NCBI GenBank assembly: GCA_016793445.1
Contig: JAEUME010000002.1
Span: 2,501-66,500, forward strand
Source: Hyphomicrobium sp.
Lineage (GTDB): Bacteria; Pseudomonadota; Alphaproteobacteria; Rhizobiales; Hyphomicrobiaceae
Length of the DNA stretch: 64,000 nt
Reading direction: 5' to 3'
Within the stretch, counting starts at the first letter, position 1. Every line of letters begins with the position of its first letter. The notes beneath the pieces are model-generated. The model did no database searches. It was not told where the DNA came from and saw nothing but the letters and a program-made list of their open reading frames with translations. Made by a program: the position numbers and the translations under genes. This document shows positions 17,738 through 38,202 of this stretch, piece after piece.

Positions 17738-18436
17738 CTAGCGATTGTCTGGCAAAATCTTGTCCGAGGGACCTTGGGCGATCACGCGTCCGCCATCCAG
17801 AAGCACGACGCACCCCGCCAATTTGCGCACTTCGCTGGCAGCGTGCGAGACATAGACGATGGGAATCGCGAATTCGTCGCGCACGCGCGCGATCAATCCA
17901 ACGATTTCGGCCTTGCGGGCATCATCTAGGCTGGCCAACGGCTCATCCAGAAGCAGGATCTCGCTCCCCGCCAGCAGCGCACGCCCCAGCGCGACACGCT
18001 GCTTTTCACCGCCCGACAGCGCCGGCGTGCGGCGGGCAAGAAGATGCGCGATTTGCAGGGTGTCGACGACGGCCTCGAATGGGATCTGCCGGCCTCCGCC
18101 TTGCGCAAAGCGGCTGCCGAAATGCAGATTTTGCTCGACGCTCATATGCGGAAAGAGTTGCGCGTCCTGAAACACCAAGCCTACGCGGCGCTTATGCTTG
18201 GGCACGAAAATTCCTTGCGCGGTATCGACGAGGATGCGTCCGCCGACCGAGATACGGCCCTTGTCGGGGCGCACCAAGCCCGCGATCAGATGCAGCACCG
18301 TCGACTTGCCCGAACCCGAAGGGCCAAACAACGCAAGAAGTGAATCGTCCGAGGTGAACTGCGCATCGAGCGCAAAGCCATTGCGTTTCAGCAGCGCATC
18401 GAACTCGATCATCGTGACCCGCGCTTCATCGCTCAT
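17738..18436 (-). CDS. modC: molybdate ABC transporter ATP-binding protein, short form
   Basis: ATPase that drives molybdate import with ModB. The 232 residues contain Walker A GPSGSGKST, signature LSGGEKQRVALGRAL, Walker B EILLLDEPLASLD and the switch histidine (YVSHAASEV). The 350-residue ModC proteins carry a C-terminal TOBE/Mop domain for molybdate sensing; it is missing here. The start overlaps the end of modB by 11 bases, so the two are co-translated. The specificity assignment rests mainly on the neighbouring ModB and the ModE-like regulator. Confidence 0.9.
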   Translation of the reverse strand: MSDEARVTMIEFDALLKRNGFALDAQFTSDDSLLALFGPSGSGKSTVLHLIAGLVRPDKGRISVGGRILVDTAQGIFVPKHKRRVGLVFQDAQLFPHMSVEQNLHFGSRFAQGGGRQIPFEAVVDTLQIAHLLARRTPALSGGEKQRVALGRALLAGSEILLLDEPLASLDDARKAEIVGLIARVRDEFAIPIVYVSHAASEVRKLAGCVVLLDGGRVIAQGPSDKILPDNR

Positions 18437-21194: not shown

Positions 21195-22664
21195 ATGACC
21201 GGCAAATCCGATGCCCACCCCCCATCTTCCGAAGATGGAGCTGTCGAAACGGGTACAGGACCTTGGGCCGCGCGGCTTGCGCATGAGACCGGAGCCGCAT
21301 TCGTTGTGGATCCCGCGCTTGCACGCATCGAAGGAGCCAACACCGAGGCCTGCCGCCTGTTAGGTTTGCGCGGCGCGCCGATCCGTTTCCCGGTTGCGCT
21401 CGATGCCGCCATGCCGGCCGTGCGCCGTCTGCGTGTGTTGAGCGAAACGGCTGGGAATGCGGATGCCGGCGCAGCCCCGGGAGCGCCATCTTCGGAGACC
21501 GCCGCGGGCGAAGAAGTTTTGACACTCTGGTGCGCCGGGCGGCTGTTGAGCCTGCCTGCCAAACTGACAAGGACGACCATGAACGACGGCCGCCCCGTAA
21601 TGTTGGTTCGCATGACCCAGGCACACGACACCGCCACTCGCGAGATGCAGGAAACAGCCCCCCCGCTGTCGCTCTCGACGGCGCCTCCAGGCCGTCCAAA
21701 ACCTGCCGAACCGGCCGATGTCGAGCGCGGGGAGGCAGGCAAAAAGCCACTTATCTTGAGCCAGGGCGACACCACGCCTTCTCCTTCGCCGGCCCGCGAT
21801 GATAGCGAGACACTGCGCGAGATTGCCCGGCGCATTCGCGAAGGTGGCCACGCACGAACGATCGCGCCTCCTCCGCTGCCGGCTGTGTCCAAGATCTCCA
21901 GCACTTCATCACAGGCATCGCTCCGCGACCATGAGGTGCGCCCCGATGCTACTCTTGTTCCGCCCCGGCTGCCGTTTCAGGGCGCCGGGCCGGATGCGCG
22001 ACACTTATCAAAGATCGCCCACGAATTGAAAACGCCGCTGAGCGCCATTATCGCCGCGGCAGAAATCATGCGCGACGAGCGGCTCGGGCCGATGGGAAAT
22101 GCACAGTATCTCGGCTACGCCGCGGATATTTACGAGAGTGCACGCCACGCCCTCGACGTGATCAACGCCATGTTGACCGGCACGAACTCTGAACATCGCA
22201 AGAGCGAGATCATCGACCTTGCGGGACTTGCGGATGTAACCGTCTCGGCCATGCTTCCGTTGGCGAGCGCCAGCGGCATCACGCTGGACGCCGACGGGGA
22301 GACCGGACGCCTCGAAGTCACCGGCGACGCGACTGCAATCCGCCAGATCATCTTCAACCTCATCAGCAACGCTCTCAAGTTCACGCCCAGGGGCGGCGAC
22401 GTGCGCGTGGCCACCGGATATCTCGACAACGGCACGCCGTTTCTAGTGGTGCGCGACACGGGCGAGGGCATGAGCGAAAGCGAGATCACGGCTGCCTTCC
22501 TCGAGCGCGACCCGGCCGGCGATTCCCGGCGCGGGGGTGGATATGGTCTCGGGCTGCCAATGGTGCGGCGTCTGGCGGAGGGGATGCAGGCTACTATCGA
22601 CGTCGACAGCGAACCTGGCAAAGGGACCGCCGTTCTCATCACTTTCCTACGGCCGCAAAGCTAG
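21195..22664 (+). CDS. soluble sensor histidine kinase
   Basis: A 489-residue two-component kinase without membrane segments. Residues 23-145 resemble a degenerate PAS-type sensor region (AFVVDPALARIEGANTEACRLLGL), 150-265 is a proline-rich linker, and the HisKA domain begins near 270 with the phosphorylated H276 in SKIAHELKTPLSAI. The ATPase domain has the N box NLISNALKFTPRGG, G1 DTGEGMSESE and G2 YGLGLPMV. No response regulator is adjacent, so it is an orphan; the partner and signal are unknown. A short inverted repeat (GTAAA-N6-TTTAC, 21176-21191) lies immediately before the start codon. Confidence 0.9.
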   Translation: MTGKSDAHPPSSEDGAVETGTGPWAARLAHETGAAFVVDPALARIEGANTEACRLLGLRGAPIRFPVALDAAMPAVRRLRVLSETAGNADAGAAPGAPSSETAAGEEVLTLWCAGRLLSLPAKLTRTTMNDGRPVMLVRMTQAHDTATREMQETAPPLSLSTAPPGRPKPAEPADVERGEAGKKPLILSQGDTTPSPSPARDDSETLREIARRIREGGHARTIAPPPLPAVSKISSTSSQASLRDHEVRPDATLVPPRLPFQGAGPDARHLSKIAHELKTPLSAIIAAAEIMRDERLGPMGNAQYLGYAADIYESARHALDVINAMLTGTNSEHRKSEIIDLAGLADVTVSAMLPLASASGITLDADGETGRLEVTGDATAIRQIIFNLISNALKFTPRGGDVRVATGYLDNGTPFLVVRDTGEGMSESEITAAFLERDPAGDSRRGGGYGLGLPMVRRLAEGMQATIDVDSEPGKGTAVLITFLRPQS

Positions 22665-22714: not shown

Positions 22715-22731
22715 ATTATAAAAATTCTAAG
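22715..22731 (+). promoter_or_regulatory. candidate Irr-box (ICE) upstream of the iron transport operon
   Basis: The sequence ATTATAA-AAA-TTCTAAG differs in three of 14 half-site positions from the ICE palindrome TTTAGAA-N3-TTCTAAA known for Irr in Rhizobiales, with the same 7-3-7 layout. It lies 142 bases before the start of the iron-binding protein gene. An Irr gene is present at 37.8-38.2 kb in this window. Confidence 0.5.
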
Positions 22732-22872
22732 GTTGCCACGGCGTCACGTTGGTTGTTGACCGCACCGTTTGGAACAGGCTAATTCGCTTTTAGGCGTGAC
22801 TATCACGCTGACGTGGCATGAGCCGCGTCAACCCGATACCGGGGCCTTGAACCCCGAATATTGGAGCTGAAG

Positions 22873-23928
22873 ATGAACTGTGCCTCACGCGCATTCTCGC
22901 GCGGTTTGCTGTCCTGTATCGCCGCAAGCCTCATTTTGGCAACATCTGCTGTTAGCCACGCAGCACGCGCGGATGGGGTCGTCAATATCTACTCCTATCG
23001 AGAACCAAAGCTTATAGATCCGCTGCTCAAGGCCTTTACGGCCAAGACCGGCATCAAAGCCAACATCATTTATGCCGGCTCGGGCCTTGTGGAGCGGCTG
23101 ACGGCGGAGGGCAAGAACAGCCCCGCGGATGTGCTTCTGACCAACGAATTCGGCTTGCTGATCCAGGCTGTAAACGCGGGCGTCACAGCGCCTGTCTCCT
23201 CAGCCGTCATCGAAAAGCAGATACCCGCGACGCTGCGCGATCCCGAAGGCCATTGGATCGGCCTCACCCGGCGCGCGCGTATCGTCTACGCCTCCAAGGA
23301 TCGGGTCACCCAGGATTCGATCACGTATGAAGAGCTGGCCGATCCCAAATGGCGCGGCAAAATTTGTTCGCGCTCGGGCCAGCATACCTACAATGTCTCT
23401 CTCATTGCGGCGATGATCGCGCACCTGGGAGAGGAAAAGGCCGAGGCTTGGCTCAACGGCGTCAAGGCGAACCTCGCGCGCAAGCCCGCCGGCGGCGACC
23501 GCGAGCAGGTTCGCGACGTGAAGGCAGGCCTGTGCGATCTTGCAATCGGCAACACGTACTACATGGTCGCGATGCAGAAAAATCCCGCTCAGAAGGAGTG
23601 GGCCGACTCGGTCAAAATCCTTTTCCCCAACGCCAATGATCGTGGCACGCACGTCAACATCTCGGGCATGTCGCTGCTGGCCAACGCGCCCAATAAGGCC
23701 AATGCCCTGGCGCTGATGGAGTTCCTCGTCTCCGACGATGCGCAGAAAATCTACGCTGATGCCGATGGCGAATATCCCGCCGTGGCGGAGGTAAGGGCAT
23801 CTGACTTCGTGCAATCGTGGGGAGAATTGAAGCCGGATTCACTGCCGCTGGCGAAAATCGCGGAGCTCAGAAAGAAGGCCTCCGAACTGGTGGACAAAGT
23901 GCACTTCGATGCCGGTCCCAACTCGTGA
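22873..23928 (+). CDS. iron(III) ABC transporter substrate-binding protein
   Basis: Periplasmic ferric-iron binding protein of the FbpA/FutA type. The ATG at 22873 (GGAG 8 bases upstream) gives 351 residues with a signal peptide ending at SHAARA. The mature protein begins VVNIYSYREPKLIDPLLKAF, the usual opening of this family, and contains SNIPGE-like ligand loops typical for class F proteins, including a Tyr pair in IGNTYYMVAMQ that matches the FbpA iron-binding tyrosines. It is the first gene of a three-gene operon with a Cys-rich protein and the permease. Confidence 0.93.
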   Translation: MNCASRAFSRGLLSCIAASLILATSAVSHAARADGVVNIYSYREPKLIDPLLKAFTAKTGIKANIIYAGSGLVERLTAEGKNSPADVLLTNEFGLLIQAVNAGVTAPVSSAVIEKQIPATLRDPEGHWIGLTRRARIVYASKDRVTQDSITYEELADPKWRGKICSRSGQHTYNVSLIAAMIAHLGEEKAEAWLNGVKANLARKPAGGDREQVRDVKAGLCDLAIGNTYYMVAMQKNPAQKEWADSVKILFPNANDRGTHVNISGMSLLANAPNKANALALMEFLVSDDAQKIYADADGEYPAVAEVRASDFVQSWGELKPDSLPLAKIAELRKKASELVDKVHFDAGPNS

Positions 23929-23988: not shown

Positions 23989-24513
23989 ATGACCAGACAC
24001 TTCACCCGGGCAAATGGCACGCTTGACGCCGAGCCGGCCCGCGTCGTCCCATTTCCTGGCCGCACGCCCGAGCGTCTCGTCGGCGTCGGCTTCCGCAGCT
24101 GGCTGTCCGGTTTTGAAACCGGCGACATCGCGTCGTGGGAAGCCACCTGGAATGCCTACGAAGAAACGTTGGGAACGGATGCCACCAAACCCGTCATTCT
24201 CGCGTTGTCGCAGTTCGTGCGCGCGGTGATGACCAGCGCCAATCGCGATATCGAGATCTATCCACCCCAGTGCCGCGGCTTCTGCCGCGACGAGTGCCTG
24301 GCGATTTCGGTGATCGCGGGATGCCAGCACGGCCAGCGCAGCGCGCTGTGCGCGTGCGCCACCGCGCTGATCGGCTCCAACGATATTGGCGACATCATCA
24401 CGCGCGCCCAGGACTTTGCTTCTGGATTGAGGGCGGCCGGACAAGTATTGAGCCCGTCCTCGGTCTGCTCGATCAACTGCCCGCTGTTCATGCCGCGCCC
24501 GAAACTGCAGTGA
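23989..24513 (+). CDS. unrecognised Cys-rich protein encoded inside the iron ABC operon
   Basis: A 174-residue protein without signal peptide or membrane helix, so presumably cytosolic. The N-terminal half has aromatic residues in WLSGFETGDIASWEATWNAY; the C-terminal half has eight cysteines at 95, 99, 103, 112, 121, 123, 160 and 164 (C-x3-C-x3-C-x8-C-x8-C-x-C, then C-x3-C). That density suggests a metal or iron-sulfur site. It lies 60 bases after the iron-binding protein gene and 17 before the permease, a position normally free or held by another transport gene. I do not recognise the family. A role in handling incoming iron or sensing it is inference from the context. Confidence 0.8.
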   Translation: MTRHFTRANGTLDAEPARVVPFPGRTPERLVGVGFRSWLSGFETGDIASWEATWNAYEETLGTDATKPVILALSQFVRAVMTSANRDIEIYPPQCRGFCRDECLAISVIAGCQHGQRSALCACATALIGSNDIGDIITRAQDFASGLRAAGQVLSPSSVCSINCPLFMPRPKLQ

Positions 24514-24530: not shown

Positions 24531-26297
24531 ATGACCACAGCTCCGTCTTCGATCACCGCGCAACAGCAGGCATCGAGCTCCAAGCCCAAGAGCCGGCTTG
24601 CGCGGATTGTGAAGCGGAGCGTGGACGCGGTACGGCAAGCACCTGGATGGTCGGCGGGTGCCCTCTTATTTGCCGGGGTGTTTGCGCTTCCGGTAGTAGC
24701 CGTCGTTCTGCTCGCGCTGGCGCCGTCAGACGACATTTGGGCTCATCTTTCATCAACGGTCCTGCCGACCGCGCTTTCCAACACCACGCTGCTGCTTGCC
24801 GGCGCCGGGCTAGCCACGCTCGTCATAGGTACGGCATCGGCTTGGCTCGTTACCATGTACCGGTTTCCCGGCCGCGCGCTTGCGGACCGGCTGCTGGTGC
24901 TTCCGCTCGCCATGCCGGCGTATATTGTCGCTTACGCCTATGCGGAGCTCTTTGACTATGCGGGTCCCATTCAATCGGGGCTTCGCACCGCGTTCGGCTT
25001 CCGAAGCCCGGCAGATTACTATTTTCCCGATATCCGCTCGCTCGGTGGAGCGATTGTCGTCTTCACGGCGGTCCTTTACCCGTACGTGTACCTCACCGCG
25101 CGCGCCAGCTTCATCCAACAATCGGTATGTGTGCTGGAGGTCGCCCGCACACTCGGCCGCACCGCTCCGGCCGCGTTCTGGGCGGTGGCTTTGCCCCTGG
25201 CGCGGCCCGCTCTGGCGGCCGGTGTCGCGCTCGTCCTGATGGAGTGCCTCAACGATCTGGGCGCCGTGCAGTATCTGGGCGTGGAGACGCTGTCGGCCAG
25301 CATCTACGCCACCTGGATGCAGCGAGGCAACTTGGCTGGCGCATCGCAGCTGGCCGTCGTGATGCTCGGCTTCGTCATTGCGCTCATTTTGCTTGAGCGC
25401 TATGCGCGCGGCGGCGCGCGCACGCACGACACGACCGGACGGGTTCGTGCCATTCCCTTCGAGGTTTTGACGGGATGGCGCGCCTGGGTGGCGCTCGCGC
25501 TCGTGTCGATGCCCTTCATCGCCGGCTTTGTTGCGCCCTTCGCGGTTCTGGCGCGCCATGCGTTGTTTCATCCTGAAGGATGGTCCCCTGCGGAGTTCCT
25601 GGCAGCAGGCGCAAACAGCCTTCTGCTCGCAGGCATCGTCAGCGTCTGCGCGGTCGCCCTCGCCCTGTTCTTCGGCTATGCCGCGCGCGTCGCGCATAAT
25701 CCGGTCACCGACGCCGCCACCCGCATCGCCGCCACGGGTTACGCGCTGCCCGGCACCGTACTCGCGATTGGCTTGATGATTCCGCTGGCGGCATTCGACA
25801 ACCGGGTGGACGCGTTCATGCGCGACACCTTCGACATCAGCACCGGGCTGATGCTGTCGGGCACTCTATTCGCCGTCTCCCTGGCGCTGATCGTGCGTTT
25901 CCTGGCTGTGGCGCTCGGCTCCATCGAGGCCGGCCTCAACCGCATCTCGCCAAGTCTTGACGCTGCCGGCCGGACGCTGGGTGCCAGCACATTGTCGATA
26001 CTGACCCGGATCCACATTCCGATCCTGGCGCCCGCGCTGGCGGCGGCCGCGCTGCTCGTCTTCGTCGATGCCATGAAGGAGCTGCCGGCCACACTCCTCA
26101 TGCGGCCGTTCAACTTCGAGACGCTCGCAACCCACGTCTACGGATTGGCAGCCGCCGAGCGCTTTGAGGAAGCCGCCCTTGGCGCCATCAGCATCGTGAT
26201 CATCGGTCTGTTGCCCGTGCTGTTGCTGCACCGGACAATCGCATCGGGCCGCGCGGGTTCCAAGCCCAGCGGCGCGGTGAGGAACCGCCGGGCTTAG
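24531..26297 (+). CDS. iron(III) ABC transporter permease, two-domain form
   Basis: A 588-residue FbpB/SfuB-type permease, a fusion of two six-helix domains (about 45-290 and 310-570). Each has the EAA loop that contacts the ATPase: EVARTLGRTAPAAFWAVALP and DAAGRTLGASTLSILTRIHI. It starts 17 bases after the Cys-rich gene. The matching ATPase (FbpC) is not in this operon: the next gene is on the other strand. The transporter must therefore use an ATPase encoded elsewhere. Confidence 0.94.
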   Translation: MTTAPSSITAQQQASSSKPKSRLARIVKRSVDAVRQAPGWSAGALLFAGVFALPVVAVVLLALAPSDDIWAHLSSTVLPTALSNTTLLLAGAGLATLVIGTASAWLVTMYRFPGRALADRLLVLPLAMPAYIVAYAYAELFDYAGPIQSGLRTAFGFRSPADYYFPDIRSLGGAIVVFTAVLYPYVYLTARASFIQQSVCVLEVARTLGRTAPAAFWAVALPLARPALAAGVALVLMECLNDLGAVQYLGVETLSASIYATWMQRGNLAGASQLAVVMLGFVIALILLERYARGGARTHDTTGRVRAIPFEVLTGWRAWVALALVSMPFIAGFVAPFAVLARHALFHPEGWSPAEFLAAGANSLLLAGIVSVCAVALALFFGYAARVAHNPVTDAATRIAATGYALPGTVLAIGLMIPLAAFDNRVDAFMRDTFDISTGLMLSGTLFAVSLALIVRFLAVALGSIEAGLNRISPSLDAAGRTLGASTLSILTRIHIPILAPALAAAALLVFVDAMKELPATLLMRPFNFETLATHVYGLAAAERFEEAALGAISIVIIGLLPVLLLHRTIASGRAGSKPSGAVRNRRA

Positions 26298-37764: not shown

Positions 37765-38202
37765 CTACTTTTTCGCCAGACGCACGACCACATCTATGTG
37801 CGTGATCGTCATGCCTTCGGGCGGTTCGGGCAGACCGGCGACCGAAATGGCATCGCCCGGAATGTCCATCAGCTCACCTTCCGATTCCAGCAAGAAGTGA
37901 TTGTGGTTAGACGTGTTTGTATCGAAGTAGGCCTTTGATCCCTCAATCGCCAATTCCCGCACCAAACCCGCACGCTTGAACTGATGCAGCGTGTTGTAGA
38001 CGGTCGCGAGCGACACATGCTCTCCCAGAGCCACAACCTCAGCATGAAGTTGTTCCGCCGTGACGTGCCGGTCCTCCCCGCCAAACAGCAATCCGCCTAG
38101 TGCCAAACGCTGACGCGTTGGCCTCAAGCCCGCAGCACGCAGCACCTGCGGCACGCTGCGCTCGGCCTCGGATGGGTCGGAATTATTCTGGGAATTGTTC
38201 AT
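37765..38202 (-). CDS. irr: iron response regulator Irr (Fur family)
   Basis: Heme-responsive iron regulator that replaces Fur in Rhizobiales. The ATG at 38202 gives 145 residues; an upstream TTG is possible. The DNA-binding part shows LRAAGLRPTRQRLALGGLLF and VSLATVYNTLHQFKRAGLV, and the dimer part has the His-rich NHNHFLLESEGELMDIP, where Irr proteins bind heme or metal. Divergent placement next to fabA-fabB-fabI is the conserved context for irr. The N-terminal heme-regulatory Cys-Pro motif of Bradyrhizobium Irr is absent. Confidence 0.92.
   Translation of the reverse strand: MNNSQNNSDPSEAERSVPQVLRAAGLRPTRQRLALGGLLFGGEDRHVTAEQLHAEVVALGEHVSLATVYNTLHQFKRAGLVRELAIEGSKAYFDTNTSNHNHFLLESEGELMDIPGDAISVAGLPEPPEGMTITHIDVVVRLAKK

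Follow-up and report, generated by a model that had tools for sequence, protein, structure and literature searches.

To our knowledge, the route of iron that links inner membrane, bacterioferritin and consuming enzymes is poorly known in bacteria. The described systems that come closest to the gene presented here are the ferric importer FbpABC, the small cysteine protein Bfd encoded in bacterioferritin (Bfr) operons, and an iron-controlled operon of R. sphaeroides; the names FbpC, IrpA, HmuT and HmuU are used for the proteins to which we take them to belong. In R. sphaeroides the genes hemP-irpA-bfd-bfr-RSP_1545-1543 are controlled by iron and repressed by IscR, and most genes with an Iron-Rhodo-box are induced by iron starvation (PMC4618611).

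Q is used here as a working name for the 174-aa product of an open reading frame from Hyphomicrobium sp. Its locus resembles FbpABC systems in that FbpA- and FbpB-like genes flank Q. The Q operon differs: it lacks an ATPase gene, and the gene placed between those for FbpA and FbpB encodes an additional cytosolic protein and outlives the importer. Like Bfd, Q is a small cysteine protein encoded in Bfr operons, and its gene often lies directly 5′ of a Bfd-like gene. Nevertheless, Q has no Fer2_BFD match and a longer, all-helical fold, and the Bfd-like genes stand beside it and are not replaced by it. The R. sphaeroides gene set corresponds to that of one Q operon (Q-imelysin-Bfd-Bfr-DHOR-imelysin-DUF1513, locus L039), but in the gene order given in that source hemP is listed first and no Q-like gene appears, and control is exerted by IscR and the Iron-Rhodo-box instead of the Irr box found for Q (PMC4618611). 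Within the literature searched, no report of a Q-like family was found, and neither was a paper on DUF6628 or on DUF1513 together with imelysin.

Gene Q and its operon

The window analysed is a stretch of 64,000 nucleotides; Table 1 gives an overview of the features discussed. The reading frame of Q is as the first-pass annotation had described it, with 174 residues and cysteines at positions 95, 99, 103, 112, 121, 123, 160 and 164, and it does lie between a binding protein gene (FbpA-type, 5′) and a permease gene (BPD_transp_1, 3′). At least eight cysteines in 174 residues are more than expected by chance (P = 1e-4, background of 0.0082 from neighbouring proteins), and the cysteine density of residues 95–123, a stretch picked by hand, gives P = 1.2e-7. 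Read by eye, the N-terminus of Q shows no hydrophobic stretch, which makes a cytosolic location plausible. The top solved relatives of the FbpA-type protein are iron-binding (1y9u, 'putative iron binding protein', E 4e-104; FbpA 1q35, E 6e-97), and a Tyr-Tyr pair, whose role in such proteins we take as known, is readable within NTYYM. NCBIfam matches of the permease are of PhnU/CysT/ModB type and all below cut-off. The kinase-like gene belongs to a cluster (c2) found at position −1 or −2 of Q for 47 of its 52 members.

Table 1 Features discussed in the text (positions refer to the window unless another locus or contig is named)
Feature	Position	Strand	Remarks
Histidine-kinase-like gene	21195..22664	+	Upstream flank conserved in relatives, outside operon; kinase identity read from sequence
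Irr-box/ICE-like palindrome ATTATAAAAATTCTAAG	22715..22731	.	~158 bp upstream of fbpA start; 11/14 specified bases of TTTRGAANNNTTCYAAA
FbpA-type iron-binding protein	22861..23928	+	Pfam SBP_bac_6/8; alternative start ATG 22873 possible
Q	23989..24513	+	174 aa, ATG start, all-helical, motif FCRDECLAISVIAGCQH, no family above cut-off
FbpB-like two-half permease	24531..26297	+	Pfam BPD_transp_1, two stretches
IrrA, iron response regulator	37765..38202	-	HNH (HxH) motif; NF045678 211 bits (cut-off 150)
ModC-like ABC ATPase	17738..18436	-	ABC_tran match nearest to Q
Orphan PotA/FbpC-type ABC ATPase	C19:7239..8321	+	TOBE_2 match; beside Tat-like genes
Q paralogue	L196:9313..9873 (C12)	-	Same genome

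The lack of an ABC ATPase gene in the operon, pointed out in the first-pass annotation, was confirmed: among 56 ABC_tran matches in the whole genome the nearest is the ModC-like one, which adjoins a permease gene of its own. As a peculiarity of this operon the absence does not hold, since an ATPase gene lies within six genes in just 1 of 41 FbpA-Q loci, and absence is thus the rule. The genome has four TOBE_2 matches, one of which is an orphan PotA/FbpC-type ATPase; no FbpA or FbpB homologue was found around it (C19:1-14000), and it would be a plausible motor for the FbpA/FbpB importer. Replacement of FbpC by Q itself was rejected, as Q has no match to an ATPase family in Pfam or NCBIfam. The ModC-like ATPase is short, with 232 aa that cover residues 9–221 of the 353-residue modC model, the C-terminal part being absent.

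No Pfam or NCBIfam model matches Q above its cut-off, in agreement with the earlier statement that it belongs to no recognised family. In Pfam, DUF6628 (PF20333) matches Q at 15.8 bits (E 0.015, gathering cut-off 27), and this model was also matched by 9 of 34 aligned homologues at E ≤0.1 (best 3.5e-5). As to a distant common ancestry, hhalign of the Q alignment with a single DUF6628 sequence gave a probability of 2.6 (E 0.018). This profile similarity, itself weak, covers the Cys/Asp-Glu region, and a DUF6628 protein (L148) has a comparable RPIQIAPWCC...GE stretch, but no iron gene is recognisable by eye beside its gene. Searches for DUF6628 gave 0 of 101 genomes of the order and 2 of 190 genomes of the class.

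An AlphaFold2 model from 66 sequences (mean pLDDT 84.7, mostly >93 over residues 31–160) is all helical, with predicted helices at 26–44, 47–61, 63–83, 100–114, 117–128 and 134–149. In this model C95 lies in the loop that precedes helix 4, C99 and C103 lie where helix 4 begins, C112 inside it, C121 and C123 in helix 5, and C160 and C164 in the low-confidence tail or at its edge. No clear counterpart among known folds emerged: Foldseek against the PDB (best E 0.53) and VIA-align (best Z 4.1) gave weak rows, with AhpD, TetR ligand domains and TRF1 among them, and a missing match does not make a new fold. A PDB sequence search with Q yielded one match only, at E 0.9. Q was also rejected as a defence gene (no PADLOC match) and as a Bfd-type ferredoxin (no match to Fer2_BFD, PF04324, at E ≤1).

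Distribution and conservation of the Q family

Q was found in 117 of 199 related genomes searched, in all 22 genomes of the same genus and, by a profile search of the class, in 22 of 289 genomes; carriers are Hyphomicrobium, Filomicrobium, Afifella, Breoghania, Kaistia and others. Dereplication of 217 calls by sequence left 140 unique members, 115 at the level of the order, with the window copy and its paralogue among them, and 25 at the level of the class. A single-sequence search for related loci returned no relative, whereas an alignment-based query did find relatives.

The strictly kept residues of the family are Glu102 (140/140), Arg36 (139/140), Asp101 (136/140) and Gln113 (135/140). C95 is kept in 85 of the 115 order-level and 20 of the 25 class-level members. 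C99 (109/115) and C103 (104/115) are common in the order and each occurs in 1 of 25 class-level members; these counts include loci L071-L145, which are biased towards both residues because the alignment query pattern required CRDEC, and loci from the other genus, order and class searches, which are free of that bias. The C95/C99/C103 triad is complete in 82 order-level members and in no class-level member, at least four of C95, C99, C103, C112, C117 and C123 are present in 83 of 115, and C121 and C164 are found in 4 and 19 of 115, respectively. The class-level relatives have between one and seven cysteines.

In the first-pass annotation the spacing of the eight cysteines was judged dense enough for an iron-sulfur cluster or several metal sites. 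The homologues speak against this in part: the full set occurs in 1 of 140 members, the window copy alone, and the triad is lost at class level, but C99 and C103 hold within the order. What the family shares is a loop and helix start rich in cysteines, but without a constant set of ligands: the eight-cysteine set is exclusive to the window copy, and cysteine positions vary across members. The conservation pattern does not imply an Fe–S cluster, for which the cysteine argument is weak; ligation of such a cluster by Asp/Glu is possible.

A distant paralogue of Q (hhalign probability 95.5) is encoded in the same genome at the end of a haem-uptake operon, where hmuT, hmuU and hmuV are followed by the paralogue and then by hemP. 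The link to HemP is kept in the genus: of 18 loci (L221-L238), 16 have HemP within the stretch that was covered. No clear Irr box was found ahead of this operon, the best site reaching 9/14.

Genomic context and regulation

Genes around Q were called with a simple caller of our own, which missed FbpB at L083 in the first neighbour run, and neighbours were labelled by BLAST to seeds. Representatives were checked with Pfam (ferritin, imelysin M75, Rrf2, di-haem oxidoreductase, DUF1513, DUF2325, HemP, FecCD, Peripla_BP_2, HemS and EncFtn-like); the labels TBDT (TonB receptor), GlpD, kinase and M15 were assigned by eye. The representative of the Bfd-like cluster c8 matches Fer2_BFD below cut-off (E 0.0046).

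An iron gene (FbpA/FbpB, bacterioferritin, Bfd, imelysin or di-haem oxidoreductase) is located at most three genes from Q in 83 of 114 assessable order-level loci, and a scatter of homologues without any link to iron transport is thereby ruled out. The rest of the 115 loci comprise 13 with the kinase/GlpD flank only, 18 with neither iron nor kinase/GlpD genes and one that is too short. Iron genes occupy position +1 in 73 of 113 and position −1 in 49 of 111 loci, nearly all co-directional with Q; at distant positions, used as control, they are found in 3 of 78 (−6) and 5 of 75 loci (+6). The order FbpA-Q-FbpB is present by direct adjacency in 26 of 115 order-level loci, Q-imelysin (followed by DHOR, imelysin and DUF1513, with an unlabelled gene upstream) in 15, Rrf2-Q-Bfd in 10 and FbpA-Q-Bfd in 8. 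Four kinds of iron operon surround Q, each of which requires repeated gains or losses on the tree (FastTree, with long-branch warnings; the paralogue is among the long branches). The link of Q to iron, proposed in the first-pass annotation from one operon, is therefore borne out on broader grounds.

At class level, iron genes occur near Q in just 5 of 23 assessable loci, namely Bfd-Bfr (L198), an EncFtn-like ferritin (L201), haem/Bfr genes (L212, two copies) and HemP (L215), and the iron work of Q may thus be a speciality of the Hyphomicrobiales.

FbpA was detected (E ≤1e-20) in 8 of the 22 genus genomes, in one of these with only 27% identity. As a consequence 14 genomes have Q without FbpA, and Q is not an obligate Fbp subunit. 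These lone-Q loci have the order kinase-Q-GlpD and retain the box described below; a clade of 12 rows nests inside the FbpA-Q-FbpB rows on the tree, and dN/dS in it ranges from 0.04 to 0.12 (median 0.09; synonymous divergence was usable in 25 of 66 pairs). Nesting, box and purifying selection together indicate that the importer was lost and that Q stayed useful.

The palindrome upstream of fbpA was scored against TTTRGAANNNTTCYAAA, which we take to be the consensus of the ICE (Irr box). At 11/14 or better it precedes 89 of 115 order-level Q operons, compared with 6 of 353 other upstream regions from the same loci, and at 12/14 or better 36 of 115 operons and 0 of 353 controls; among class-level operons, 1 of 25 reaches 11/14. 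The signal is specific for the 3-base spacer, as other spacer lengths reach at most 31 operons. Permuted half-sites reach at most 24 operons in 39 of 40 cases; the exception, with 86, departs from the true half-site in the last base alone. Across 19 upstream regions of the genus, identity to the window is 94% within the box and 42% outside it. TTCTAA forms part of the ICE of S. meliloti mbfA (PMC7540006), and apo-Irr is described as binding ICE boxes and being able to repress or activate (PMC7762939). The genome encodes four Fur-family proteins, among which IrrA is a candidate regulator of the palindrome. The irrA gene and genes that look fabA/fabB-like by eye (from 38377 on) are oriented divergently.

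Possible functions of Q

Because the family recurs in operons for the import of iron, the import of haem and the storage of iron, with an iron-responsive switch ahead of them, Q is very probably an undescribed part of iron handling in these bacteria. We rate the family as undescribed and the kind of system as known; the link to iron by context and regulation is strong, and metal binding is putative.

As an explanation of the whole we tentatively favour, at somewhat short of an even chance, an Irr-controlled cytosolic accessory or acceptor that handles iron or haem. Placement, box, IrrA, residue conservation and survival without the transporter are observed and speak for it, as do the paralogue in the haem operon and the iron control of the matching R. 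sphaeroides gene set; against it stand the variable cysteine ligands, the low share of class-level loci with an iron gene near by, the 18 order-level loci without a recognised iron or kinase/GlpD neighbour, the paralogue operon without a clear box and the fact that regulation tells the timing and not the function. Q would be the founding member of a family of small all-helical proteins in the cytosol of Alphaproteobacteria, whose synthesis Irr would adjust to iron/haem status along with that of the local iron system, be it FbpA/FbpB ferric import, HmuTUV/HemP haem import, imelysin/di-haem-oxidoreductase uptake or bacterioferritin with Bfd. The region where helix 4 begins may bind iron, an Fe–S cluster or haem; Asp101-Glu102 with C95, C99 and C103 would form the likely site there, Arg36 and Gln113 being near by. 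In the cytosol Q could accept iron or hand it over between entry or release and the users, and the need for it would be greatest at low iron. For the window copy, FbpA-FbpB would deliver the substrate, and an ATPase whose gene lies elsewhere would power the transport. Since Q occurs in four kinds of iron operon, has a conserved box of its own and outlives the adjoining importer, the family is a direct, testable candidate for the step from the inner membrane or bacterioferritin to the enzymes, and a functional label becomes available for genes now called 'hypothetical' in many Alphaproteobacteria.

A wider form of this proposal, which we consider rather doubtful, makes the Q family, possibly with a new helical fold, a shared acceptor-sensor hub on the inner side for all main iron routes of the Hyphomicrobiales under Irr control. 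Ferric import, haem import, imelysin uptake and bacterioferritin release would each hand iron to Q, and its occupancy would report the iron status.

Alternatively, Q could be a sensor or regulator and not a carrier, reading haem, Fe–S or thiol redox and adjusting a partner such as the permease, Bfr, Bfd or an Rrf2 regulator. Many different partners yet one box, and an Rrf2 gene immediately 5′ of Q in many loci (the ten with Rrf2-Q-Bfd among them), are consistent with this reading. Furthermore, Cys117, present in 60 of 115 order-level members, is followed by Pro in all 60, which hints at a haem-sensing variant; a Cys-Pro dipeptide is named as the invariant part of haem regulatory motifs in the R. 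sphaeroides report (PMC4618611). However, the window copy has Arg117-Ser118 in its place, and the dipeptide is also missing in 12 of 13 lone-Q loci and in every one of the 25 class-level relatives. Q has no DNA-binding or known sensor domain and only weak PDB matches; such a role appears possible at best and rather improbable.

It is unlikely that Q has a structural role, is a zinc protein or works as a general accessory, with nothing but iron-regulated promoters to link it to iron and with cysteines that are not iron ligands. The near-invariant Arg36, Asp101, Glu102 and Gln113 could form a structural salt-bridge network, and number and place of the cysteines drift, but it is hard to see why a protein without an iron role should be placed in several iron operons that are independent of each other and have a dedicated box, and the frequency of C99 and C103 within the order also speaks against it.

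A dedicated component of an ATPase-less Fbp ferric importer, as the FbpA-Q-FbpB loci and the first-pass annotation would have it, is very improbable and as an exclusive role already contradicted, since Q is kept under purifying selection, together with its box, where FbpA was lost and other members reside in Bfr, imelysin or haem operons.

Some neighbours of Q deserve mention in their own right. A DUF2325 protein with several cysteines recurs in FbpA-Q-Bfd-Bfr operons (L057, L107, L113, L122 and others) and is an uncharacterised candidate for an iron-operon component. Rrf2-family regulators (cluster c7, e.g. L058) are encoded directly 5′ of Q; their representative has a single Cys, far from what we take to be the cluster-ligand positions of RirA/IscR, and may therefore sense by other means. 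At L201:8846-9151 a gene of the EncFtn-like (encapsulated ferritin) type is divergent from a distant Q relative.
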